A DNA stretch of 64,000 bases from Cupriavidus sp. YR651. Lineage in GTDB: Bacteria > Pseudomonadota > Gammaproteobacteria > Burkholderiales > Burkholderiaceae. Made by a program: the position numbers and the translations under genes. Below the pieces are notes generated by a model. That model worked only from the letters and a program-made list of their open reading frames with translations, made no database searches and was not told where the DNA came from. Location: positions 1,210,304 through 1,274,303 of the forward strand of contig NZ_FMYZ01000001.1 in assembly GCF_900101625.1 (NCBI RefSeq). The letters are read 5' to 3'. Numbering within the stretch: the first letter of the stretch is position 1; each line of letters opens with the position of its first letter. Below are positions 33,486 to 40,373 of this stretch, in pieces.

Positions 33486-34736
33486 TTACATGTTGTCGAC
33501 CATCACCTGGCCGAAGCCCGAGCACGATACCTGCGTCGCGCCTTCCAGCAGGCGGGCAAAGTCGTACGTAACCTTCTTCGACAGGATCGACTTCTCCATC
33601 GACGAAATGATCAGGTCCGCTGCTTCGGTCCAGCCCATGTGGCGCAACATCATTTCGGCCGACAGGATTTCCGAACCCGGATTCACATAGTCCTTGCCCG
33701 CGTACTTCGGCGCCGTACCGTGCGTGGCTTCGAACATCGCCACCGAATCCGACATGTTCGCACCCGGGGCGATGCCGATGCCGCCCACCTGCGCGGCCAG
33801 TGCGTCCGAAACGTAGTCGCCATTCAGGTTCAGCGTGGCAATCACCGAATACTCGGCCGGGCGCAGCAGGATCTGCTGCAGGAACGCGTCGGCGATGGCG
33901 TCCTTGATGACGATGTCCTTGCCGGTCTTCGGGTTCTTGAACTTGCACCACGGGCCGCCGTCCACCAGCGCGGCTCCGAATTCCTTCTGCGCCAGCTCGT
34001 AGCCCCAGTCACGGAAGCCACCTTCGGTGAACTTCATGATGTTGCCCTTGTGCACCAGCGTCACCGACGGCTTGTCGTTGTCGATCGCATACTGGATGGC
34101 CTTGCGCACCAGGCGCTGGGTGCCCTGCTTCGACACCGGCTTGACGCCAATCCCCGAAGTCTCCGGGAAGCGGATCTTCTTCACGCCCATTTCGTTCTGC
34201 AGGAAGGCAATCAGCTTCTTCGCGCCCTCGCTCTCGGCTTCCCATTCGATACCGGCATAAATGTCCTCCGAGTTCTCACGGAAGATCACCATGTCGGTCT
34301 TTTCCGGCTCGCGCACAGGCGACGGCACGCCCTTGAAATAGCGTACCGGGCGCAGGCAAACGTAGAGGTCAAGCTGCTGGCGCAGCGCGACATTCAGAGA
34401 GCGGATGCCGCCACCGACCGGCGTGGTCAGCGGGCCCTTGATCGACACCACGTATTCCTTGAGCACGTCCAGCGTTTCGTCCGGCAGCCAGACGTCCGGG
34501 CCGTACACCCGGGTGGACTTCTCGCCCGCATAAATCTCCATCCAGGCGATCTTGCGCTTGCCGGCGTAGGCCTTTTCCACGGCCGCGTCCACGACCTTGA
34601 TCATCACCGGCGTGATATCGAGACCGGTGCCGTCACCTTCGATATAGGGGATGATGGGATTGTCCGGCACGTTGAGCGAGTAATCGGCATTCACCGTAAT
34701 CTTCTCGCCTGCCGGGACCTTGATGTGCTGGTACAT
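33486..34736 (-). CDS. icd: NADP-dependent isocitrate dehydrogenase
   Basis: TCA-cycle enzyme converting isocitrate to 2-oxoglutarate, 416 residues, the dimeric E. coli type. Motifs include [15 protein letters not shown], the substrate loop [14 protein letters not shown] with the regulatory Ser, [12 protein letters not shown], and the NADP-binding region [13 protein letters not shown]. The ATG at 34736 is the normal start ([13 protein letters not shown]). The upstream region holds a 12-bp palindrome shared with another promoter in this window. Confidence 0.97.
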
Positions 34737-34886
34737 GGACGTCTCCACTACGGAACGGGGTTGTGACGGTCGCCAGGCATGTGGTCCGGCAACGCGATGC
34801 AAAGGGGCCGCGAGGCATTGTAACGGGCGTTCTCGGTTCGGCCCGTGACTCACCATGTCGCGCCGCACCACAGATGATCGACTATG

Positions 34887-34909
34887 AGTCTTATATAAGA
34901 CATAAGACT
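34887..34909. promoter_or_regulatory. Conserved palindromic element, icd/rluE intergenic copy
   Basis: The core TCTTATATAAGA (34889-34900) is a perfect 12-bp palindrome, extended to 14 bp by G and C at the ends. The 23-bp segment matches the one at 39857-39879 at 21 positions. On the icd strand, TTGCTG and TTATGT lie just upstream with 18-bp spacing, so a regulator bound here would sit near the icd start site. Confidence 0.65.
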
Positions 34910-34976
34910 AATCTCATATTATGCAGCAATCTGCGATCGTCCGCCAACTTGACGGGTTGGGGCATACTTCGCGCCC

Positions 34977-35702
34977 ATGACGCTGATCACCCTCAACAAA
35001 CCCTTCAACACAATGAGCCAGTTCTCGGCGCACCCCACGCGGCCGACCCTGGCCGATTGCGTGTCCGTGCCGGACGTCTACCCGGCGGGGCGACTCGATG
35101 CCGACAGCGAAGGTTTGCTGCTGCTGACCGATGACGGCGCACTACAGGCGCGCATCGCCGATCCGCTCCACAAGCTCGTCAAGACCTACCTCGCACAGGT
35201 GGAAGGCGTGCCGGACGCTGCCGCGCTGGCGCAGTTGCGCACGGGGGTGGACCTGGGCGATTTCCGCACGTTACCTGCGGCGGCTCGCGTGGTCGATGAA
35301 CCGGCATGGCTGTGGCCGCGCCACCCGCCGATTCGCTACCGCGCAGCCATTCCCACGTCGTGGGTGGAACTGCAGATTCGCGAAGGCAAGAATCGACAGG
35401 TTCGTCGCATGACCGCTGCCGTCGGTTTCCCCACCTTGCGGCTGATACGCGTGGCGATCGGTAATCTGTCGCTGCCAGCGCTGGGGCTGGAGCCGGGCCA
35501 ATGGTGCGAAATCGATCCGGGCGTGGTGGGGCTACCCAGCCCGACCGCTCGCCCGCCCGCGACGATGGCGCGCAGCCCGGGCACGAGAAAGCCGGCTGTG
35601 AAACGAGCGGAAAAACAGGGGGGCAATCGGGGGAACAAACAGGTGGATACACAGACGGCGCAACGGCCGGCAGCACCGGTAAGACGCCGTTACAAATCCT
35701 GA
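34977..35702 (+). CDS. rluE: 23S rRNA pseudouridine synthase, RluE type
   Basis: Pseudouridine synthase of the RsuA/RluB/E/F family, 241 residues. The catalytic motif GRLDADSEGLLLLTDDG carries Asp41; NRQVRRMTAAVGFPTLRLIR is the family C-motif. There is no N-terminal S4 domain, matching RluE, which modifies U2457 in E. coli 23S rRNA. A basic, low-complexity tail of about 50 residues follows the fold. It diverges from icd, as in several proteobacteria. Confidence 0.9.
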   Translation: MTLITLNKPFNTMSQFSAHPTRPTLADCVSVPDVYPAGRLDADSEGLLLLTDDGALQARIADPLHKLVKTYLAQVEGVPDAAALAQLRTGVDLGDFRTLPAAARVVDEPAWLWPRHPPIRYRAAIPTSWVELQIREGKNRQVRRMTAAVGFPTLRLIRVAIGNLSLPALGLEPGQWCEIDPGVVGLPSPTARPPATMARSPGTRKPAVKRAEKQGGNRGNKQVDTQTAQRPAAPVRRRYKS

Positions 35703-38719: not shown

Positions 38720-39643
38720 TCAGTAACGGCCGCAGAGCAGGTATTCCATCAGTGCTTTCTGGACGTGCAGGCGGTTTTCCGCCTCTTCCCACACCACGCT
38801 GCGCGGGCCGTCGATCACGGCCGCTTCCACTTCCTCGCCGCGGTGCGCCGGCAGGCAGTGCATGAACAGCGCATCGGCGGCAGCACGATCCATCATCGCG
38901 GTAGTCACCATCCAGTCCTTGAACGCGCGCTTGCGCGCCTCGTTCTCGGCTTCGAAGCCCATGCTGGTCCAGACGTCGGTCGTCACCAGGTGCGCACCCA
39001 GGCAAGCGTCGAGCGGGTTGTCGAACACCTTGACCCGGCTGGCAGCGGAGGCCGGCACCATCGCCGGATCGAGCTGGTAGCCCGCGGGCGCCGAGAAATG
39101 GAACGTGAAGTCCAGGCGTTCCGCAGCCTGAATCCACGTATAGGCCATGTTATTGGCATCGCCGATCCACGCCACCGTCTTGCCGGCAATGCTGCCGCGC
39201 TGCTCGATGTACGTGAAGATGTCGGCCAGCACCTGGCACGGGTGGTATTCGTTGGTCAGCCCGTTGATGACCGGCACGCGCGAATGGGCCGCAAAGCGTT
39301 CCAGGATGTCCTGACCGAACGTGCGGATCATGATGATGTCCACCATCCGGGAGATCACCTGCGCGGCGTCCTCGATCGGCTCGCCACGGCCGAGTTGCGA
39401 ATCGCGCGTGTTCAGGAACACGGCGTGGCCGCCCAACTGGTGGATGCCGGCTTCGAACGACAGGCGCGTACGCGTGGAATTCTTCTCGAAGATCATGGCC
39501 AGCGTGCGGTCATGCAACGGGTGCCATGTCTCGTAGTTCTTGAACTTGGCCTTGAGGATCCGCGCGCGGTCCAGCAGGTACTCGTACTCGTCGGCACTAA
39601 GGTCGCTGAACTGGAGGTAATGCTTGATCGGGGTTGAGCTCAT
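38720..39643 (-). CDS. argF: Ornithine carbamoyltransferase
   Basis: Arginine-pathway enzyme making citrulline from ornithine and carbamoyl phosphate, 307 residues. The carbamoyl phosphate motif STRTR is at 56-60, HPCQ occurs near 134, and the ornithine-site motif HCLPAHRGEEV is near the C-terminus. It is divergent from the DUF3579 gene, an arrangement seen in Burkholderiales. Confidence 0.97.
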   Translation of the reverse strand: MSSTPIKHYLQFSDLSADEYEYLLDRARILKAKFKNYETWHPLHDRTLAMIFEKNSTRTRLSFEAGIHQLGGHAVFLNTRDSQLGRGEPIEDAAQVISRMVDIIMIRTFGQDILERFAAHSRVPVINGLTNEYHPCQVLADIFTYIEQRGSIAGKTVAWIGDANNMAYTWIQAAERLDFTFHFSAPAGYQLDPAMVPASAASRVKVFDNPLDACLGAHLVTTDVWTSMGFEAENEARKRAFKDWMVTTAMMDRAAADALFMHCLPAHRGEEVEAAVIDGPRSVVWEEAENRLHVQKALMEYLLCGRY

Positions 39644-40067
39644 AAAACAAAGAAGGCGACTCGCTGGGGACTCGCGGCCCGGATGCCTGGGGAGGTCATG
39701 CCGGAGGGCCGGAGCGTTTCGCGGAGCCGCCTTTCGCGTCGCTTACGCAATGTAATTGCAAGAATCATAAGGGATTATTCCAGCTTTGGCGAGCCCGGGC
39801 CGACCCGGCCCTGGCGGCCAATGACAGGTTTCCGACAGGATTCGCCCCTATGCGCAAGTCTTATATAAGATATAATACTGGCTGATTCACGCGGGGCCCG
39901 GCATACCCATGCCACCGCCCGCCGCCGGCATCAAAAGTGCCCCCGCCGACACCGACGCCCCGCTTTCCCGTCTGGATGAGCGCGAACCAATCGCCCTCCG
40001 GCCGCGTCAAACGGGCGCCCGTCCGGCGGGTTTACCGTCGAGTCACCAGCCTGATCCCCGCAGTCCC
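39644..40067. other. Divergent argF/DUF3579 intergenic region
   Basis: It holds the second copy of the palindromic element at 39857-39879 and A+T-rich sequence near 39750-39785 that may contain the argF promoter. An in-frame ATG at 39909 could extend the DUF3579 protein, but that segment is Pro/Arg-rich and lacks a ribosome site. Confidence 0.45.
39857..39879. promoter_or_regulatory. Conserved palindromic element, argF/DUF3579 copy
   Basis: TCTTATATAAGA (39859-39870) is identical to the core upstream of icd. Directly after it, TATAAT (39871-39876) is a perfect -10 box for the plus strand, so a bound regulator would block or assist RNA polymerase at the DUF3579 promoter. Confidence 0.65.
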
Positions 40068-40373
40068 ATGACCACCCCCAACGTTCGCGAATACTTCATC
40101 CAAGGCATTACCAAGGAAGGCAAGACCTTCCGACCGAGCGACTGGGCTGAACGGCTGTGCGGCGTGATGGCGCAATTCCGTCCCGAGGGCGATACCGGGG
40201 ATCCCCGCCTGACCTACTCGCCGTACGTGCGGCCGGTCATCGTTGCCGGGATCAAGAACGTGGTGGTCGATACGCGGCTGCGCGCCATCGAGCCCAAGGC
40301 GCTCGACTTCGTCCTGAATTTCGCCCGCGACAATAACCTGCAGGTGGTGGAAGCCTGCTCGCTGGGCGACTGA
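40068..40373 (+). CDS. DUF3579 domain protein
   Basis: 101-residue protein starting MTTPNVREYFIQGITKEGK and containing FRPSDWAERLCGVMAQF and YSPYVRPV, the conserved core of a betaproteobacterial family without known function. The ATG at 40068 lacks a strong ribosome site. Its promoter overlaps the shared palindrome. Confidence 0.85.
   Translation: MTTPNVREYFIQGITKEGKTFRPSDWAERLCGVMAQFRPEGDTGDPRLTYSPYVRPVIVAGIKNVVVDTRLRAIEPKALDFVLNFARDNNLQVVEACSLGD

Follow-up and report, generated by a model that had tools for sequence, protein, structure and literature searches.

Results

The icd palindrome and its copies in the genome

The palindrome TCTTATATAAGA upstream of icd, the gene for the NADP-dependent isocitrate dehydrogenase, is very probably an operator of SdhR, a regulator of the GntR family, and part of a TCA/glyoxylate cycle regulon; this prediction from sequence is the best explanation of the results as a whole. 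In the window, that is, the whole stretch of 64,000 nucleotides of Cupriavidus sp. YR651 that was analysed, the palindrome occurs exactly at 34889–34900, in the icd/rluE intergenic region, and again at 39859–39870, between argF and a gene encoding a DUF3579 protein. The first copy lies upstream of icd, 153 bp from its start (34736), and 77 bp from the start of rluE (34977). The locus contains the following features:

33486..34736, minus strand: icd, NADP-dependent isocitrate dehydrogenase (NF005425 and TIGR00183 above cut-off, run on 33486–34739)
34817..34822, minus strand: TACAAT, candidate −10 region of a putative second promoter for icd, P2 (seen by eye in 17 of the 18 sequences from the genus)
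34889..34900, no strand: predicted SdhR-type operator core TCTTATATAAGA (exact match, genome scan, and motif given in PMC4494728)
34901..34907, plus strand: putative additional half-site CATAAGA beside the core (by comparison with the longer motif given in PMC4494728)
34918..34947, minus strand: predicted icd promoter P1, TTGGCG (34947–34942), 18 nt, CATAAT (34923–34918) (promoter search)
34977..35702, plus strand: rluE-like pseudouridine synthase (scores above the cut-off of TIGR00093 and below that of the RluE model)

Two claims of the preliminary description, a perfect 12-bp palindrome in this intergenic region and a 23-bp segment that recurs with 21 matches, were borne out: positions 34887–34909 (AGTCTTATATAAGACATAAGACT) and 39857–39879 (AGTCTTATATAAGATATAATACT) agree at 21 of 23 positions. 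A third, that the core is AT-only, holds for the inner 8 bp but not for the full 12 bp. A mechanical open reading frame (orf) of 123 aa (34763–35134) spans the icd copy; it shares sequence with rluE in a different frame and appears to be spurious. The rluE gene is divergent from icd and is a possible collateral target.

Allowing up to two mismatches, the window holds two matches to TCTTATATAAGA, against a mean of 0.07 in shuffled sequences. The whole genome (6.96 Mb) contains five exact copies and six with at most one mismatch, compared to none for a reversed-pattern control; at up to two mismatches, there were 22 matches and 16 for the control, so matches of this kind are near background and were excluded as sites. 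The exact copies are located before aceA, between a GntR-type regulator gene and mdh, before icd, between argF and the DUF3579 gene, and before acnB, and the sixth copy, with one mismatch, precedes a gene for a monomeric isocitrate dehydrogenase (IDH). Judged by these neighbours, every locus except argF/DUF3579 belongs to the TCA or glyoxylate cycle. None of the six strong copies falls within a recognised gene, and each is upstream of a gene start; thus, copies are not found inside genes as often as upstream of them. In front of sdhC of this genome, there is no copy, even at up to two mismatches.

Conservation within the genus and the structure of the icd promoter

Among 30 genomes of the genus, the exact site was present at all aceA (29/29) and all acnB (28/28) genes found, and among 19 genomes at all 18 DUF3579 genes found. 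The icd site is kept in 13 of the 18 icd genes found in 19 same-genus genomes, and outside the genus in one of nine fetched loci (G030, from another family). Its retention in the genus, together with the upstream position of the strong copies, supports the earlier proposal that one factor controls icd and another locus. At the monomeric IDH gene, a one-mismatch site was found in nine of 27 same-genus genes and an exact site in none; this site is therefore lineage-specific, and we rejected monomeric IDH as a general target.

The promoter search found one icd promoter (P1) against 0.2 expected in shuffled sequences, a result that is weak taken alone. The distance from the P1 −10 region to the core is equal in 11 of the 14 icd promoters having the site, and the core would lie at about +11 to +22 relative to the predicted P1 start. 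In the five same-genus icd loci without the site (G001, G004, G005, G009, and G011), P1 and the operator appear by eye to be absent jointly, over a stretch of about 95 bp, as if the regulation had been lost as a module. The downstream TACAAT, again by eye, is kept in four of these five loci and in 13 of 13 others, so a further promoter, free of SdhR control, may serve icd. The icd site itself is ordinary.

The second operator and its likely target

The locus of the second palindrome contains the following features:

38720..39643, minus strand: argF, ornithine carbamoyltransferase (TIGR00658 above cut-off)
39764..39792, minus strand: TCGCCA-17-TATGAT, predicted as the promoter of argF and distinct from the operator (promoter search and conserved same-genus block)
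39859..39870, no strand: second predicted SdhR-type operator core (exact, as in 18 of 18 same-genus DUF3579 loci)
39871..39876, plus strand: TATAAT abutting the core, predicted −10 region of the DUF3579 gene, with no clear −35 region (alignment of 24 loci)
40068..40373, plus strand: gene for a DUF3579 protein of 101 aa (PF12112, on the longer orf 39909–40373)

We aligned 24 DUF3579 loci, which had been picked for an exact core, so only the sequence outside the core counts as evidence. TATAAT abuts the core downstream in 23 of them and TACAAT in one. In front of acnB, the hexamer just after the core is TATAAG, an outer half-site, compared to TATAAT, a −10 region, in front of the DUF3579 gene; half-site and −10 region thus differ by one base. 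The promoter search listed no promoter at the second operator, and for argF it found one against 0.3 expected in shuffled sequences.

The preliminary description had placed a second locus under the control of the same factor, which is likely, and the DUF3579 gene is its likely target, as judged from sequence. It is improbable that the second operator controls arginine synthesis through argF instead of, or besides, DUF3579: argF is divergent from the operator at a distance of 216 bp, and an ArgF match adjoins DUF3579 in 44 of 55 loci, but argF has its own conserved promoter-like block separate from the operator, the core abuts a TATAAT that reads into DUF3579, and in one genome (G002, locus L142) the site is kept at DUF3579 with no ArgF match within the stretch. 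We therefore ranked argF lower as the main target of this site.

In the family, DUF3579 matches were present in 54 of 60 genomes, and the counts come from 30 loci listed, 27 of them new. Among these matches listed, six of the 27 further loci have an exact site (one more of the genus Cupriavidus, and genera g20, g26, and g40), and 21 have none, three of the 21 being at one mismatch. None of ten loci fetched from outside the family has an exact site, and one (G030) has a one-mismatch site more than 400 bp upstream; the site also recurs in a second family (f48; genomes G133 and G170). The operator abuts TATAAT in four genera of one family, and the site is present in two genera of a second. These counts indicate that the site is fixed in the genus and near relatives and is not general. 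The DUF3579 protein had no match in NCBIfam, its relative in the PDB (2l9d_A) is a solved structure of an uncharacterized protein, and DUF3579 was named in no paper of the literature searched, outside which most subscription journals lie.

The published SdhR motif and the regulator of this genome

SdhR is described as a GntR regulator of the HutC subfamily whose motif, TCTTATGTCTTATATAAGACATAAGA, is palindromic and has additional symmetry, and extra half-sites are reported near GntR-family sites in general (PMC4494728; Suvorova, Korostelev and Gelfand, 2015, citing Suvorova et al., 2012, for SdhR). This was the sole paper of the literature searched whose full text matched the 12-mer; its passages on SdhR give the motif and the extra symmetry, with no target list, and the name SdhR occurs once each in PMC7064253 and PMC8396210. 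The motif given in PMC4494728 contains TCTTATATAAGA, so that the core is identical, and the icd site has the core and one outer half-site of TCTTATGTCTTATATAAGACATAAGA. The site between the regulator gene and mdh in our genome, TCTTATGTCTTATATAAGACATATGA, agrees with the published motif at 25 of 26 positions, with one mismatch.

The regulator encoded beside this site contains a GntR helix-turn-helix domain (PF00392) and a UTRA domain (PF07702), both above cut-off. Among the 25 NCBIfam models listed for it, none reaches its cut-off; HutC, the histidine utilisation repressor, was rejected at 118.2 bits for TIGR02018 (cut-off 220). The gene is divergent from mdh and is followed downstream by sdhC, sdhD, sdhA, sdhB, and gltA (sdhC and sdhD identified from their position and by eye). 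A site in the promoter region of a regulator gene beside the sdh genes recurs across the order. The closest named relatives are from Cupriavidus, and the exact core is present in 69 of 80 named regulator loci, including all 17 from Cupriavidus/Ralstonia. The 11 loci without it are from three Burkholderiaceae assemblies (53–56 percent identity), two Pusillimonas, one other beta-proteobacterium, and five members of the Halomonas group. Collectively, SdhR is most likely the factor on the icd palindrome, and its predicted regulon is much larger than the two loci first described.

Co-occurrence of motif and regulator across the order

In a scan of 100 genomes from the order, 55 contained the exact motif, 11 contained the reversed control, so that some exact copies are background, and 68 contained a regulator relative at E ≤ 1e-20. 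Motif and regulator occurred together in 51 genomes, the motif alone in four, the regulator alone in 17, and neither in 28; the motif is thus present in 51/68 genomes with the regulator and in 4/32 without it (Fisher p = 3.5e-9, with kinship ignored, the genomes not being independent).

From among the matches listed, 62 sites were fetched in 60 stretches, leaving out the five own sites, two sites of G056, a third G030 site (L118), G179:C9, G149:C32, G157, G162, and G037; entries for rluE and aceA2 are the same sites counted under a neighbour or homologue. Among these matches listed, 49/62 sites lie at most 420 bp upstream of a reference-gene match: regulator (35), aceA (5), acnB (4), DUF3579 (2), acnA (1), icd (1), and monomeric IDH (1). 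For the 35 regulator sites, the distance to the start of the match does not exceed 237 bp, and 31 of these sites also precede mdh. Three further sites precede prpE, acs, and aceB, and ten had no recognised target, five of these ten being inside orfs (all among the matches listed).

Extra sites were fetched for G003, G013, and G021 only. All three genomes have a site before a second type of isocitrate lyase gene, and two of them, G013 and G021, also have one before a trans-aconitate 2-methyltransferase gene (tam), whose product acts on an aconitase inhibitor. Identity was tested for two of the three lyases and for one of the two tam genes (L155:2196–2966, with the site at the gene start); the other (L162) was assigned by likeness. 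Several single loci were also observed. In three genomes of the order (L353, L354, and L359), weak relatives of citrate synthase and isocitrate lyase, which we infer to be prpC/prpB-like, take the place of mdh as divergent neighbours of the regulator gene, with the motif in between. An exact site near position 2501 of L339 is directly upstream of a 699-aa orf with the look, by eye, of an AMP-dependent ligase. One genome (G125; L309 and L310) has three exact copies and no regulator relative at E ≤ 1e-20; two of the copies are inside long orfs with nearly equal flanks and are probably repeated coding sequence.

These data also bear on whether another transcription factor binds the palindrome, the neighbouring GntR gene being merely one of its targets. 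The assignment of the palindrome to SdhR is a prediction from sequence, and our genome has five further regulator matches at E ≤ 1e-20; even so, this reading is very unlikely, given the assignment of the motif to SdhR in the passages of PMC4494728, the co-occurrence of motif and regulator across the 100 genomes, and the closeness of the motif to the regulator at 35/62 sites (among the matches listed), even where the relatives are only 31–37 percent identical. Counting against the SdhR reading are the icd loci without an exact site (5/18 in the genus, 8/9 outside), the DUF3579 loci without it (21/27 further family loci, 10/10 outside the family), the regulator genomes without an exact copy (17/68), the named loci without the core (11/80), the ten fetched sites with no recognised target, the background shown by the reversed control, and the lack of a copy in front of sdhC.

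Site position relative to predicted promoters

In related sequences, we located promoter-like hexamers by a loose criterion and recorded their position relative to the core. The survey left out one aceA locus (L185 of G003, with two sites; hence 28/29), the icd loci without the site, and the 11 regulator loci without the motif, and mdh was assumed to be divergent in all 69 regulator loci. At aceA, the core is directly preceded by a −10 region such as TACACT in 15/28 sequences. At sdhR, a −10 region adjoins it downstream in 39/69, mostly outside Cupriavidus, and at our own sdhR, TTGATG-17-TATAAG runs into the core (by eye). At acnB (28/28) and mdh (67/69), the −10 region begins 43 to 49 bp past the core start, which places the core near −50, upstream of the −35 region. 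Judged by site position, SdhR would repress icd, aceA, sdhR, and DUF3579 and might, from near −50, activate mdh and acnB, the activating class being the less sure of these two predictions.

The reading that the repeats arose by chance, or are AT-rich sequence usual in promoters, with no dedicated factor, can be dismissed: they do sit in promoters, where TATAAG-like hexamers are common, and the reversed pattern appears in 11/100 genomes of the wider order, but chance is rejected in our own genome by the shuffled windows (two against 0.07) and the reversed control (none against six copies at up to one mismatch), and neither the exact conservation at acnB and aceA nor the differing core position relative to the −10 region at different targets fits this reading.

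Discussion

The operator is real, strongly conserved, and of a known regulator kind. It gives an orphan palindrome a named candidate factor, SdhR, places a large share of the TCA and glyoxylate cycle (mdh, the sdh–gltA unit, acnB, icd, aceA, and monomeric IDH) under one predicted regulator, and ties DUF3579, a conserved protein, to central metabolism. Both the regulator and its motif are known; what may be new is DUF3579 as a target, together with the position classes. The literature searched, which covers few of the subscription journals, yielded no mention of DUF3579, monomeric IDH, or tam among the targets of SdhR and none of either position class.

From the sites, their neighbours, their conservation, and their co-occurrence with the regulator, we infer binding, the sign of regulation, and an effector as follows. 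An SdhR dimer would bind the core, with a further subunit perhaps on the flanking half-site. At icd, where the core lies just downstream of the predicted P1 start, the bound dimer would act as a roadblock and block P1; at aceA, sdhR, and DUF3579, where it lies over the −10 or start region, it would repress; and at mdh and acnB, where it lies upstream of the −35 region at about −50, it could act as an activator. Expression of the TCA and glyoxylate cycle genes would be set by a small-molecule ligand of the UTRA domain, which may be a TCA intermediate. A wider proposal is tentative, and we would not expect all of it to hold: in Burkholderiales, SdhR would govern the TCA and glyoxylate cycles as a master switch with dual action, repressing icd P1, aceA, sdhR, and DUF3579 and activating mdh and acnB, and DUF3579 would be a hitherto unrecognised part of TCA cycle or respiratory control.

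The regulator of Cupriavidus sp. YR651 resembles SdhR in its GntR and UTRA domains, and in having its gene beside sdh, a location that for SdhR itself is suggested by its name. If the position of the site determines whether it represses or activates a promoter, SdhR would also act like FadR of E. coli, a GntR-family protein that differs from it in subfamily, motif, and pathway.
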